The notes under the pieces: generated by a model
Seen by the model: the letters and a program-made list of their open reading frames with translations, nothing else
The model's database searches: none
Told to the model about the DNA's origin: nothing
Part shown: positions 57,859 to 63,967 of the stretch, piece after piece
How the letters are laid out: the number at the start of each line of letters is the position of its first letter
Position numbering within the stretch: position 1 is the first letter of the stretch
Assembly: GCA_018823135.1 (NCBI GenBank)
Contig: JAHJJF010000065.1
Location: 1 to 64,000, forward strand
From: Pseudomonadota bacterium
Lineage (GTDB): Bacteria; Desulfobacterota; Desulfobulbia; Desulfobulbales; CALZHT01
Length of the DNA: 64,000 bases
Direction: 5' to 3'
Translations under genes and position numbers: made by a program

Positions 57859-57976
57859 GGGTTATCATCCCAGTAAAAATCACTCTGCCGACAGGCATTC
57901 TGCACCCAACCTCTTAATTTTATCAGGCCCTGTTGATGACAACGAAACTTTTTACGAATGCAACAAGGATTCTAAA

Positions 57977-60900
57977 ATGAATACCTGGCTCTTGATTCCC
58001 TTTCTTGTCTTTACCCTTTGCTTTTTCAGTGTAAAAGAAATCAATGCGGCGCAAACTCCAGCCTTGCACAGGATTAAAATATCCTTTGACCTTGAAGCAC
58101 CATCCTTTACCGGTGCCTCGTTTATCGAACTGCCACCGGATACCAGGGCAGTTATTCATTTAGGAGACCTGACTATCCTGGGTTTTTCCTATACCGGCTC
58201 CGGTTTCACTTTAGACGATTCAAAGAAAACCCTTTCCCTGGAACCTGCCGCAAAATCCGAAATCGTCTCCATTTCATTTGAAAAAAAATTAGCCGATGAA
58301 AACGGCATGCATGGCAACCTGGTCAGCAAAGCAGGCATAACTTTAAGCGGTCACTGGCATCCGGTGCTTGATCTTAAGGCAATCCATCAGCTCACCGCAA
58401 CGGTCCCTGAAAATTTTGAAGCAATCGCCGAGGCCGAGGAAATAAAACAGACCTCAACCCCGCGGGGCAAAGAATTTGAGTTCCTTTTTCCGTATCCGGT
58501 CAATGACATTCATTTCACCGCCGGCCCCTATGTTATCGCACAAACTCCTTTCGGCAACGGCAAAGCGCTTTACACCTATTTCTTCCCGGAAGATAAAGAC
58601 CTTGTTGCCGAGTATCAGGAAATGGCACTCTCGTATCTTGACCGCTATGAAAAACTCATCGGGCCATATCCCTACAATCGTTTTTCCGTGGTGGAAAACC
58701 GGCTGCCAACCGGCTTTGCCATGCCGACCTATACCCTTCTGGGCCAGGCAGTGGTGCGCCTGCCGTTTATCACCCAAACCTCCCTTGGCCATGAGGTAGT
58801 CCATTCCTGGTTCGGAAACAGCGTTGACATTAATTATGCTCGCGGCAACTGGGCAGAAGGCCTGACTACTTATCTCGCCGACCACCTGTATGACCGGGAC
58901 AAAAACGAGGATGCGGTTTTCCGTAAGAATCAACTGATAAAATATGCCAGCTATGTGAACAAGGACAATGCCATTTCCTTGAAACAATTCACCTCCGCCT
59001 TCCATCTCGACCCTACCCAGCGAGCCCATGCGGCGGTGGGGTATTCCAAGAGCATGATGGTCTTTCACATGCTCTACACCAAGCTGGATGATGAGGTGTT
59101 TTTCAAGGCAATAAGCGATTTCTACACGAGAATGCAGGGCCGCGATGCGGATTGGGACGACCTTAAAGCAAGTTTTGAGAAAGTCACCAGTTCCGATATG
59201 AACCAATTCTTTTCCCAATGGCTTGAGCGCACCGACATCCCGAAACTTGTCGTGCTTGACCTCAAATCGGAAGAAAGAGACGGTAGACCCGTTCTTCTTT
59301 TCAAACTTGTCCAGGAAAACGAAAACGCCTACATACTCGAAGTACCGATGCTGATCAAAACCATGGGCGGAGAAATCCACAAAACAGTTTCCGTCACTGA
59401 AAAGGAAACCCCGATTGAAATCCCCCTGACCCAGACCCCCCTTGAATTGATAATCGACCAAAACTACGACCTCATGCGCCAACTCACCGGCAATGAACTG
59501 CCGCCCGTATGGTCACGCTTCCTGGGAGAACCCCATAAACTTGCGGTGGTCAAAGACAAGTCCGAGAAGACGATTTATGGGCCGCTGCTCGAGATGTTTC
59601 ACTTTGAAGAAGGCCATGTGATCTCTGCCGCGGAAACAACGGATGAACTGCTTGCCGGGCATTCGGTGATATTCATGGGTGCCGATCTGGCGCCGGCCCG
59701 GGCAATCTTTGCAACCGCAGGCCACGAAGAATCCGGCTTCACCCTTGATGTCCGGACCAATCCGTTAAATATCGAAACCACTGCGATATTGGTCAGTGCC
59801 TCCACAGACAATGAGCTTAATGCCGCCCTGGGGAAACTCAAGCATTACGGCAAATACAGTTATCTGCATTTTGAAAACGGCCGCCTGCAATCCAAGGAAA
59901 CTAAAGCAACAGAATCTGGACAACGCTATCACCTGAAGCCACCCCCACGGGGGTTCGCCACCAGGCAGACCCTGGCTTTCGAGTCGATTATCAACGACCT
60001 AGCCAAGAAAAGGGTGGTTTATGTCGGAGAAAACCATACGCGCTACGAGGACCACATTCTGCAGCTTGAAATTATCAGGGCGCTGTACGAGTTGAACCCC
60101 AACCTGGCCATCGGCATGGAAATGTTTTCACGAGTCGACCAGCAGGCGATTGATAATTACATTGCCAGAAAAACCGACGAAAGAACCTTTCTCAAGGAAT
60201 CATCCTACTTCAAAAAATGGGGTTACGACTATCGCCTGTATCGCGACATTATCAACTTTGCCCGCCTGCATCACGTGCCCATTGTCGCCCTCAATCTCGA
60301 AAAAGAAATTGTCAGCACAGTATTCAAGGGCGATGGGGTGTCAGGGCTTGACGGAGAGCAGCACGAGTCAATCCCTAATGACCGGGCTCTGGATATCCCC
60401 GGATATCGAGAGCGGCTTGCCGGCTTTTACATGCTTCATAGCCGTTCAGACACCGAACCGGATAAATTCAATAATTTCCTGCAATCCCAGGCCTTGTGGG
60501 ATGAAACCATGGCTGAGACCATCGCCGGCTATCTTGGACAACACCCCGATGATCAAATGGTTGTTATCATTGGCCAGGGACACGCAGTGAAGGAAAATGC
60601 CATCCCGCCGAGAGTGAAAAGAAGAATTGACGTTGAACAGGCGGTTGTGGTCAATGCCGCTGATGGCGAGATTGATCCGAATCATGCTGATTATCTGGTG
60701 CACATGCCGTCTTCCTCCCTGCCCCAGGCAGCCATTCTAGGCGTTTTACTCGAGGACACCGATGCTGGCATTCTGGTTACCAAGCTTTCAGAGCACGGCG
60801 GTGCAAAACAGGCAGGGATAAAAGAAAAAGATATTATCCTGACCATAGACGGTGTGGCTGCCCCAGACATATCTGCATTAAAAATTGAAATGCTTTTCAA

Positions 60901-60991
60901 AAAAACCGATAAACCCGTGTTGGTAAAAGTCAAGCGGCAAGGGTCTTTCTTTTCATCGGATAAGGAAATTGATATTGAGGTCAAACTCTAA
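57977..60991 (+). CDS. Exported fusion: M1 peptidase, ChaN-like and PDZ domains
   Basis: From ATG 57977 (AAGGA seven bases upstream) the protein is 1,004 residues. A signal peptide (MNTWLLIPFLVFTLCFFSV, ending NAAQ) leads into an M1-family metallopeptidase region (to about 570) with HEVVHSWFG and a Glu in GNWAEGLTTYLADH; the spacing is one residue shorter than the classic HEXXHX18E, as in a known M1 subgroup. Next, at about 650-900, is a ChaN/haem-binding-lipoprotein-like domain (VVYVGENHTRYEDH, IGMEMFSR, VVIIGQGHAVKENAIP). The end (about 910-1000) is a PDZ domain (GILVTKLSEHGGAKQAGIKE, IILTIDGVAAPD). It acts in the periplasm or at a membrane. It is downstream of trmFO by 118 bp. Confidence 0.85.
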   Translation: MNTWLLIPFLVFTLCFFSVKEINAAQTPALHRIKISFDLEAPSFTGASFIELPPDTRAVIHLGDLTILGFSYTGSGFTLDDSKKTLSLEPAAKSEIVSISFEKKLADENGMHGNLVSKAGITLSGHWHPVLDLKAIHQLTATVPENFEAIAEAEEIKQTSTPRGKEFEFLFPYPVNDIHFTAGPYVIAQTPFGNGKALYTYFFPEDKDLVAEYQEMALSYLDRYEKLIGPYPYNRFSVVENRLPTGFAMPTYTLLGQAVVRLPFITQTSLGHEVVHSWFGNSVDINYARGNWAEGLTTYLADHLYDRDKNEDAVFRKNQLIKYASYVNKDNAISLKQFTSAFHLDPTQRAHAAVGYSKSMMVFHMLYTKLDDEVFFKAISDFYTRMQGRDADWDDLKASFEKVTSSDMNQFFSQWLERTDIPKLVVLDLKSEERDGRPVLLFKLVQENENAYILEVPMLIKTMGGEIHKTVSVTEKETPIEIPLTQTPLELIIDQNYDLMRQLTGNELPPVWSRFLGEPHKLAVVKDKSEKTIYGPLLEMFHFEEGHVISAAETTDELLAGHSVIFMGADLAPARAIFATAGHEESGFTLDVRTNPLNIETTAILVSASTDNELNAALGKLKHYGKYSYLHFENGRLQSKETKATESGQRYHLKPPPRGFATRQTLAFESIINDLAKKRVVYVGENHTRYEDHILQLEIIRALYELNPNLAIGMEMFSRVDQQAIDNYIARKTDERTFLKESSYFKKWGYDYRLYRDIINFARLHHVPIVALNLEKEIVSTVFKGDGVSGLDGEQHESIPNDRALDIPGYRERLAGFYMLHSRSDTEPDKFNNFLQSQALWDETMAETIAGYLGQHPDDQMVVIIGQGHAVKENAIPPRVKRRIDVEQAVVVNAADGEIDPNHADYLVHMPSSSLPQAAILGVLLEDTDAGILVTKLSEHGGAKQAGIKEKDIILTIDGVAAPDISALKIEMLFKKTDKPVLVKVKRQGSFFSSDKEIDIEVKL

Positions 60992-61660: not shown

Positions 61661-61784
61661 ATGCGTCTTCGCCTTATCATGTTCAGAAAAGTGCCAAGCT
61701 CCGCGTTTAATCTAAAAAACAATTATAATAATTATCCCGAACCATTTAGTATAAAGATAAAATTCCACTAAAGAGGAGATGCTT

Positions 61785-62657
61785 ATGAGGATTTTTCTTG
61801 CCGCACTGATTATTCTCAGCCTGTATGGATGCAATATGCAGCACATGACCGGAAGCGGACACGAACACCAAGGCGACAAGCATGCCAAATTCGAGGCCCA
61901 TTATGCCGAAAGCCTCTTTGCGGTTACTGAAAACAATCTGTTCAGTGTTGAAATGGTGCTTAAAGGAGGGGATCTTTTCATCGGTCCCAATTCCCTTGAT
62001 ATTATCATTCACGGCCAGGGCAACAAAGATCTCGAAGAGGCAAGCATCAAAGTGGCCCCTTTCATGCCGGAACATAACCATGGGGTAATGGAAGAACCGG
62101 TGGTCACCGAAATCGGCGCAGGGCTCTACAATGTCGACAATGTCAATCTTACCATGGAAGGCCTCTGGGAAATCACCATAACTATTCTTGCAGGAAACCA
62201 GCTTGATAAGGCGGTTTTTTCTTTTCCCGATGTAACGCTTAAAAAAAATATGGGGCATGAAGGCATGCATTCCTCCCAGGGCCATCCTGACCAGCCGACA
62301 CAAAAACCGAAAAAAATCAATCTCACCACCAGCACGGTGTCAGAGCGCAAACTGCTGAATGTTTCCTATGCAACAGACCTGAACAGGATTCCCTTGAACA
62401 AGATCCACTCCTGGACCCTTAAAATTCATGACCGAAGCGGCAAACCGGTTTCGGATGTCAAAATCAAAATAACCGGCGACATGCCGGAGCACGGCCACGG
62501 CATGCCGACAAAACCCCAAGCCACCATGGAGACCGAACCGGGTGTCTATATCATTGAGGGAATGAAGTTCACCATGCCCGGCTGGTGGGCGGTGAATTTT
62601 TATCTGGACACGCCCCAGGGCACTGATGCCGTGACCTTCAATCTCGATCTCAAATAA
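61785..62657 (+). CDS. Lipoprotein with two YtkA/FixH-like domains
   Basis: The 290-residue protein starts at ATG 61785, with GGAG six bases upstream, and has a lipoprotein signal (LIILSLYGC, lipobox LYGC). A His-rich segment follows (HMTGSGHEHQGDKH). Two similar domains each carry the motif MPxHxHG: PFMPEHNHGV at about residue 105 and DMPEHGHGMP at about 240, with WEITITILAG- or WWAVNFYLD-type strands after them. YtkA/FixH-like domains with such motifs can bind copper. The next gene is the peroxidase, 41 bp away and likely co-transcribed. Confidence 0.8.
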   Translation: MRIFLAALIILSLYGCNMQHMTGSGHEHQGDKHAKFEAHYAESLFAVTENNLFSVEMVLKGGDLFIGPNSLDIIIHGQGNKDLEEASIKVAPFMPEHNHGVMEEPVVTEIGAGLYNVDNVNLTMEGLWEITITILAGNQLDKAVFSFPDVTLKKNMGHEGMHSSQGHPDQPTQKPKKINLTTSTVSERKLLNVSYATDLNRIPLNKIHSWTLKIHDRSGKPVSDVKIKITGDMPEHGHGMPTKPQATMETEPGVYIIEGMKFTMPGWWAVNFYLDTPQGTDAVTFNLDLK

Positions 62658-62698
62658 GGCTTGTTCCCAGGAAAACAACTGCAACGAGATTGCGAAAA

Positions 62699-63967
62699 AT
62701 GATAAAGACTATGTTCAAAAAAATTCTCATCTCCACAGGCCTGCTGATCTATCTTTTTCCCGGAATTTCTTATGCCGCCCATCCGGATGTTCATACCTGG
62801 ACTAGTGAGGAAAAAGAATTCCTCCAGTCCCTGTGGCTCGGCTCGCTCCCCCCCTTGCCGGATGACCCTTCAAACGCCTATGACACCAAGCCCGGGGCCG
62901 TATCCTTCGGAAAGAAACTCTTTTCCGATGAACGCCTGAGCGCCAACGGCAAGGTATCCTGCGCCACCTGCCATATTCCGGAAAAAACCTTTACCGATAA
63001 TCTGCCGCTGGCGCACGGCATTGAGGATACCACCAGAAGATCCATGCCCCTTGCCGGCATGGCATACAGCCCCTGGCAGTTCTGGGATGGACGCGCCGAC
63101 AGCCTGTGGAGTCAGGCGCTGGGACCTATTGAAAATCCGCTGGAGCATGGGATCAGCAGGACAAAATGCGCCATCATCATTCACCAGTTCTACCGCGAAG
63201 AATACGAAACCGTTTTCGGCCCCGTTCCTGAACTGGATGAAAAATACTCCGACAAAGCCCGACCCGCCACGGATAATCAAGAAATACACGCGCTCTGGAA
63301 CGCCATTGACACCAAGGACCGGCAAGCGATCAGTATTTTTTTCGCAAACATCGGCAAGGCGATCGCCGCCTTTGTCCGGACAATTATGCCCAGCGCCGCC
63401 CCCTTTGATAGCTATGTTCAGGCAATTTTAAATAATGACCTTGATGAGGCGGTTAAGCATTTAAACCCCGACCAGGCATTCGGCCTCAAACTGTTTATTG
63501 GTAAGGCAAAATGCATCAACTGCCATAACGGACCATTATTCACCAACAATGATTTCCATAATGTCGGCGTGCCGGACCGCAAGGGTCTGAAAAGGGATGT
63601 CGGACGTGCCGCAGGGATCACCCAGGTCATGGCAAACGAGTTTAATTGCCTGAGTTCCCATAGTGATGCCGGACCAGGTGATTGTGCTGAACTGCAATAT
63701 ATCGATACCGACACGACAAAATACCTCGGAGCTTTTAAAACCCCATCCTTGCGAAATGTTGTTGACCGGCCACCTTACATGCATGCCGGCCAGTTCAAAA
63801 CTATTACCGAAGTGCTGCACTTTTATCAGCAAGAGGCAAAAAAACGAACGTCAGGCAAAAACAAAGGCTTTGCCACCGACATCATACATGGCGAATTGAC
63901 CGATGAAGATCTGCTTTATCTTGAATCCTTTCTTGGTTCATTAAGCGCTCCGGTTCAATCGCAGTAA
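62699..63967 (+). CDS. Di-haem cytochrome c peroxidase / MauG family protein
   Basis: The 422-residue protein has a signal peptide (LISTGLLIYLFPGISYA), a first haem motif CATCH, followed by SMPLAGMAYSPWQFWDGRADSLWSQAL, and a second haem motif CINCH, followed by FHNVG and later LRNVVDRPPYMHAGQF. This is the CCP/MauG layout, reducing peroxide or modifying a protein. The start could be one of several close codons (ATG 62699 or ATG 62711); no strong ribosome site is seen. It follows the YtkA-like lipoprotein. Downstream genes lie outside the window. Confidence 0.9.
   Translation: MIKTMFKKILISTGLLIYLFPGISYAAHPDVHTWTSEEKEFLQSLWLGSLPPLPDDPSNAYDTKPGAVSFGKKLFSDERLSANGKVSCATCHIPEKTFTDNLPLAHGIEDTTRRSMPLAGMAYSPWQFWDGRADSLWSQALGPIENPLEHGISRTKCAIIIHQFYREEYETVFGPVPELDEKYSDKARPATDNQEIHALWNAIDTKDRQAISIFFANIGKAIAAFVRTIMPSAAPFDSYVQAILNNDLDEAVKHLNPDQAFGLKLFIGKAKCINCHNGPLFTNNDFHNVGVPDRKGLKRDVGRAAGITQVMANEFNCLSSHSDAGPGDCAELQYIDTDTTKYLGAFKTPSLRNVVDRPPYMHAGQFKTITEVLHFYQQEAKKRTSGKNKGFATDIIHGELTDEDLLYLESFLGSLSAPVQSQ

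Follow-up and report, generated by a model that had tools for sequence, protein, structure and literature searches.

A conserved two-gene unit pairs a YtkA-domain lipoprotein with a MauG-type di-haem enzyme that may oxidise it at a copper site

The locus

The DNA analysed here (the window) is a stretch of 64,000 nucleotides, bases 1-64000 of a contig that continues to 76148. Near its right-hand end lie two genes on the same strand, lipoprotein first, with the following features.

61785..62657, + strand: lipoprotein with two YtkA (CrdA-like) domains, 290 aa (PF13115, 96.4 bits)
62064..62084, + strand: domain 1 motif, MPEHNHG (from the sequence)
62481..62504, + strand: domain 2 motif, MPEHGHGM; Met233, His236 and His238 are the proposed copper ligands
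62574..62588, + strand: MPGWW, with Met264 and Trp268 (conserved rows of the alignment)
62699..63967, + strand: MauG-type di-haem enzyme (CCP_MauG, PF03150, 132.1 bits); start ATG 62699 or TTG 62690
62960..62974, + strand: haem-binding motif 1, CATCH; both Cys and the His invariant (42/42)
63512..63526, + strand: haem-binding motif 2, CINCH; both Cys and the His invariant (42/42)
63824..63826, + strand: Tyr at the MauG Tyr294 position, proposed sixth haem ligand (from the alignment)

A ribosome-binding-like GAGGAG at 61773-61778 is consistent with a start of the lipoprotein gene at 61785. Extension of the contig to the right, which the original prediction had called for together with a check of gene co-occurrence, reveals, 3' of the pair, genes whose products resemble, by eye, DUF898 proteins, M48 proteases and thioredoxins. 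When both sides of the pair were compared with the nearest related locus (L021, an uncultured Desulfobulbaceae whose lipoprotein is 59% identical), no flanking gene was found in common, and thus we take the unit to be the two genes. Elsewhere in the window, at 57962-60991 (+ strand), Pfam recognizes M1-peptidase, ChaN-type haem-binding and PDZ domains joined in one protein.

A two-domain lipoprotein with a CrdA-like fold

The first gene encodes a protein with a signal peptide and an LYGC lipobox (Cys codon 61830-61832, assigned by eye), and two stretches of it match YtkA well above the curated PF13115 cut-off of 25.9 bits. Its N-terminus and linker are rich in His and are modelled with low confidence, pLDDT falling below 50 in the mature protein at positions 5-14 and 143-153. 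Both Pfam and the sequence bear out the original description of a two-domain YtkA lipoprotein with His motifs and a His-rich linker directly before a di-haem gene; the accompanying term "FixH-like" can be dropped, as YtkA alone was matched. The predicted model of the lipoprotein has a pLDDT of 87.7 and a pTM of 0.53, the latter leaving the placement of the two domains unsure. The best fold match of domain 1 is CrdA (9ll4; Z 14.4, rmsd 1.8 over 100 residues), and domain 2 matches copper-bound FetP (Z 9.6), with the proviso that many unrelated Ig-like chains likewise match the fold of the lipoprotein. CorA, MopE, CopC and MbnP are absent among the fold matches listed for the lipoprotein, an absence that excludes nothing.

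Where might a metal bind? For CrdA, a Cu(I) cluster made up of Met69, 72, 75, 78 and 99 has been proposed (PMC9182242), and CrdA Met69, Met72 and Met99 map to Met233, His236 and Met264 by way of a weak domain 1 alignment (E 0.07) moved to domain 2 through the shared motif. On this mapping, the motif of the lipoprotein would overlie the proposed CrdA copper cluster, with Met-to-His substitutions there and copper as the probable metal. The Met, Gly and Trp of the MxGxW motif are invariant in 45/45 rows of the alignment, Trp268 is the sole invariant aromatic residue, and most single-domain members have an extra His directly before the Met of MxGxW. Two-domain relatives mostly have WMPxMGHG at the domain 1 motif, the Trp of which is replaced by Phe in the window. 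This Trp directly before the motif was considered as a universal substrate and rejected, given the Phe in the window and its absence from most single-domain members.

A MauG/MbnH-type enzyme outside both named families

The second gene product belongs to CCP_MauG by its score (against a PF03150 cut-off of 25.6 bits) and by its two haem motifs. Its predicted model has a pLDDT of 94.8, and with Z scores of about 28-31 to peroxidases and MauG alike in the top rows (29.9 to MauG), the fold comparison is uninformative as to which of the two it resembles. The alignment, on the other hand, places the Tyr at 63824-63826 with MauG Tyr294 and with a Tyr of MbnH, as opposed to the Met of the peroxidases 1iqc and 3o5c; we take the MauG ligand number to be Tyr294, which agrees with the PDB title Y294H. 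Tyr occupies this position in 66/66 partner enzymes, and the other 29 rows of our tree have Tyr (18), Phe (5), Met (4), Leu (1) or His (1), such that Tyr is invariant in the pair yet not unique to it. With Tyr rather than Met at the sixth haem-ligand position, the enzyme is, judged from its sequence, probably a MauG/MbnH-type oxidant and not a classical bacterial peroxidase, and the "peroxidase" of the original prediction is probably the wrong label. The MauG haem has Tyr-His ligation, and in BthA, another relative with a Tyr ligand, the bis-Fe(IV) state is stable (PMC6405878).

Neither named family claims the enzyme, however: in its best NCBIfam matches it scores 140.5 bits against the NCBIfam cut-off of 362.85 for MbnH (TIGR04039) and 133.2 bits against 443.85 for MauG (TIGR03791), and three relatives likewise fall below both cut-offs. 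MbnH was found above its cut-off in 0/19 genomes, and the MbnP model (TIGR04052) hit neither the lipoprotein (searched to E 1) nor four relatives (searched to E 0.01).

In a tree of 95 di-haem proteins built by a quick method, 66 partner enzymes and four lipoprotein-less enzymes split from 25 other CCP_MauG proteins with an SH-aLRT of 100; the tree omits the partial enzyme of L044, counts L031 as a pair and includes 15 of the 27 Planctomycetota loci described below. The four clade enzymes that have no adjoining lipoprotein are located near selD or arsenic genes, and hence at least some members of the clade act on something else. By eye, those at L121:4030-5340, L122:689-1972 and L123 adjoin a selD-like gene and a TauE-like permease. 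A second clade enzyme of genome G018, without a lipoprotein neighbour (L120:2664-3947), has ArsR-, ACR3-like and permease/thioredoxin-like genes of arsenic type around it, again by eye.

Conservation of the pair

When genome contigs were scanned by sequence pattern, 45/47 related loci proved to have an enzyme homologue adjoining the lipoprotein gene, with genes called from simple ORFs (by a rough script in the neighbour survey). The two misses are L044, whose contig ends 240 bases past the lipoprotein gene with a 46-residue enzyme-profile match at that end, and L059, which has no enzyme homologue beside the lipoprotein gene. Adjacency is kept even where gene order is flipped (L025) or the strands differ (L039, L042, L055). 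The scan used motif peptides as queries, which inflated the E and G of MPEHGHG in the alignment and could bias the result, and so a protein-similarity search, free of this bias, was run as a repeat: 149 Planctomycetota-centred genomes yielded 27 loci in 19 genomes, with MPxHxH in 27/27 and the enzyme adjoining in 25/27 (the misses being L202, a short piece of 1852 bases, and L227, which has full flanks). Among 96 genomes of the order, 10 have a full-length lipoprotein (E <1e-60), all 10 of these have an enzyme match (<1e-100), and three more have an enzyme match at that level without the lipoprotein.

By record title, the 66 partner enzymes come from Planctomycetota (22), Pseudomonadota (7), Thermodesulfobacteriota (4), Myxococcota (4) and Nitrospirota (2), with 27 whose titles do not tell; named strains with the pair are Stella sp. 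ATCC 35155, Sneathiella glossodoripedis JCM 23214 and the gammaproteobacterium HTCC2148. As far as sequence can tell, then, the pairing is no coincidence: the two-gene unit is maintained across at least five phyla. A mirror-tree correlation (r 0.84, n 46; largest of 1000 permutations 0.15) was dropped, as shared species history yields the same.

The His motif and the enzyme go together. A Pfam-profile search gave 74 YtkA loci, of which 66 remained after the removal of five repeats (L118, L119, L147, L162, L163) and three loci without a readable YtkA frame (L116, L117, L144). The enzyme adjoins 26/28 of those with MPxHxH and 0/38 of those without, the latter mostly carrying MPAMPGMPAM; the two misses are L111 and L110, the gene of which extends as far as the end of its contig. 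As 23 of the loci come from genomes picked for containing a pair, we also counted without them, with the enzyme beside 9/11 HxH and 0/34 no-HxH YtkA loci; no p-value is given because the loci are related by descent. The variants MPQHGHG, MPGHGHG and MPGHDHG are also accompanied by the enzyme (L149, L165, L166), and three MPxHxH proteins lack it with no contig end as the cause (L059, L111, L227). Conservation, one of the two points on which the original prediction had staked itself, thus holds in each survey (45/47, 25/27, and 26/28 versus 0/38). Trp268, for its part, is retained in YtkA proteins without the enzyme too and so may be structural only.

Genomic context across hosts

In two Myxococcota (L030, L048) the pair lies within cytochrome oxidase clusters, with CtaG in both and Sco in L030, and in a zetaproteobacterial locus (L055) it lies beside COX2 and COX1. 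At L030:1489-8424, the pair stands between CtaG and Sco. The neighbour survey found most pairs not adjoining oxidase genes, and the window's own genome, which is 95% complete, has no match to the haem-copper oxidase family (PF00115), and oxidase assembly as the general role was on this ground rejected for this genome. With oxidase clusters in some hosts and no oxidase in the window's genome, the pair is portable, and the copper that it handles may serve different ends in different hosts. The most frequent upstream gene encodes an NHL propeller (18/45 loci), and large downstream proteins at 16 loci form one BLAST cluster; as neither is universal, we place both outside the unit. Planctomycetota loci, e.g. 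L036 and L049, often combine an NHL propeller upstream with a downstream gene for a large secreted protein that carries LVIVD or dockerin.

YtkA domains also occur in fusions. A domain with MPxMGHG is fused to a multicopper oxidase at L016:1345-2991 and also at L015, L017, L018 and L168, and at L019:883-1908 (- strand) and L013:1501-2172 (- strand) the fusion partner of the YtkA domain is Cys-rich and metallothionein-like.

Proposed mechanism and its rivals

What does the enzyme do to its neighbour? We consider it likely that the lipoprotein is oxidised by the enzyme, whether by residue modification or by copper(I) oxidation, and the probable outcome is a copper site that is completed or switched. 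The reading that we put first, with a rough probability of 45%, is that the pair forms a self-contained unit driven by H2O2, in which the enzyme oxidises a lipoprotein residue at or near the copper site and so completes the site. Such a unit would sit in the cell envelope. H2O2, the presumed oxidant, would activate the MauG-type di-haem enzyme, which would draw electrons from the YtkA lipoprotein encoded next to it; oxidation would strike an aromatic residue, with Trp268 as the candidate, in or close to the mixed His/Met copper site; and the oxidised residue would complete the copper site, by analogy with kynurenine in CorA and MopE.

The main rival, a cuprous peroxidase or a dedicated electron donor, has the His/Met sites of the lipoprotein present Cu(I), which the enzyme would oxidise to Cu(II) with H2O2, such that toxic Cu(I) and peroxide are removed and no residue is modified. 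His/Met sites suit copper that changes charge, it is His residues and not Trp that distinguish the enzyme-linked YtkA proteins, and multicopper oxidases, a second oxidase joined to this domain, occur in fusions with related YtkA domains in the same order. With only His special and with these fusions at hand, copper(I) oxidation stays alive as a rival, albeit the less likely of the two: the oxidase-fused domains have MPxMGHG rather than MPxHxH and no adjoining di-haem gene (L168), and the Tyr at the ligand position of the enzyme is of the MauG/MbnH type, MauG being described in the available text of PMC6405878 as acting on protein residues. Oxidase clusters in L030, L048 and L055, together with the implication of the YtkA-family protein CtaK of Bacillus subtilis in CuA assembly (available text of PMC13344008), could instead suggest a copper chaperone for oxidases, with the enzyme merely shielding the site from peroxide; we judge this improbable, as the window's genome lacks PF00115 and most pairs lie away from oxidase genes. 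Even less credible, and to our minds very improbable, is that the two are simply neighbouring genes with no joint function. Four clade enzymes do occur without a lipoprotein, but adjacency in at least five phyla despite changed order and strand, the link to the motif and the separate clade all speak for a partnership. The original prediction had suggested that the lipoprotein supplies the enzyme with either copper or a protein substrate. The protein substrate is the better half of this suggestion, and copper supply was set aside as unlikely because, to our knowledge, the di-haem relatives of the enzyme need no copper.

If oxidation of a lipoprotein residue is indeed the reaction, the pair may stand for a further MauG-type enzyme/substrate class that spans five phyla or more. 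Its di-haem enzyme, driven by H2O2, would equip a small protein of YtkA/CrdA fold with a copper site containing an oxidised residue, and the Met-to-His change would mark the partner that needs the enzyme. We advance this generalization still more tentatively than the mechanism itself.

Significance

MauG-type enzymes with a known protein substrate are few. The pair is a candidate for such an enzyme and its substrate, and it is simple to recognize by MPxHxHG together with the gene next door. The evidence throughout is sequence and predicted structure, and in the open-licence literature we found no relevant paper on YtkA or FixH family proteins paired with MauG/di-haem peroxidases, or on MauG-like proteins with a copper-binding protein or MauG genome neighbourhoods. 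What does the large unnamed branch of CCP_MauG do, and do oxidised residues at copper sites exist outside methanotrophs? The pair puts both questions within reach of experiment.

Comparison with known systems

With CrdA of Helicobacter pylori the lipoprotein has its domain fold in common (Z 14.4), and with CtaK of Bacillus subtilis, in the available text of PMC13344008, its YtkA domain. CrdA, however, has a Met-only cluster without His in the available text of PMC9182242, whereas the window motifs MPEHNHG and MPEHGHGM contain His, and the YtkA proteins without MPxHxH have a MauG neighbour at 0/38 loci. MauG, which acts on protein residues (available text of PMC6405878), resembles the enzyme in fold (Z 29.9) and in the Tyr294 position and differs in its family model (133.2 vs 443.85 bits). 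No methylamine dehydrogenase genes were noticed in the ORF lists around the enzyme.

MbnH forms a kynurenine in its partner MbnP. The two make up a comparable conserved pair (PMC3621798), in which a di-haem enzyme goes with a secreted protein of small size, and the enzyme again has Tyr at the ligand position. Our enzyme nevertheless scores 140.5 against 362.85 bits for MbnH, and the MbnP model does not match the lipoprotein. In CorA/CorB and MopE/SACCP, as PMC3912023 describes them, two His bind the copper next to a kynurenine, and a co-transcribed di-haem protein has been proposed as the oxidant. These systems likewise couple a surface copper protein to a MauG-like di-haem partner, and two His are present in the motif of our lipoprotein; kynurenine is invisible in DNA. 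The lipoprotein differs from CorA and MopE in that it matches only YtkA in Pfam and CrdA best by fold, and CorA and MopE are methanotroph systems, whereas the hosts of the present pair extend beyond methanotrophs. The logic is nonetheless the one found in CorA/MopE and MbnP/MbnH, carried by another fold, and thus our first choice for what this pair may do is that the enzyme oxidises the lipoprotein at the copper site.
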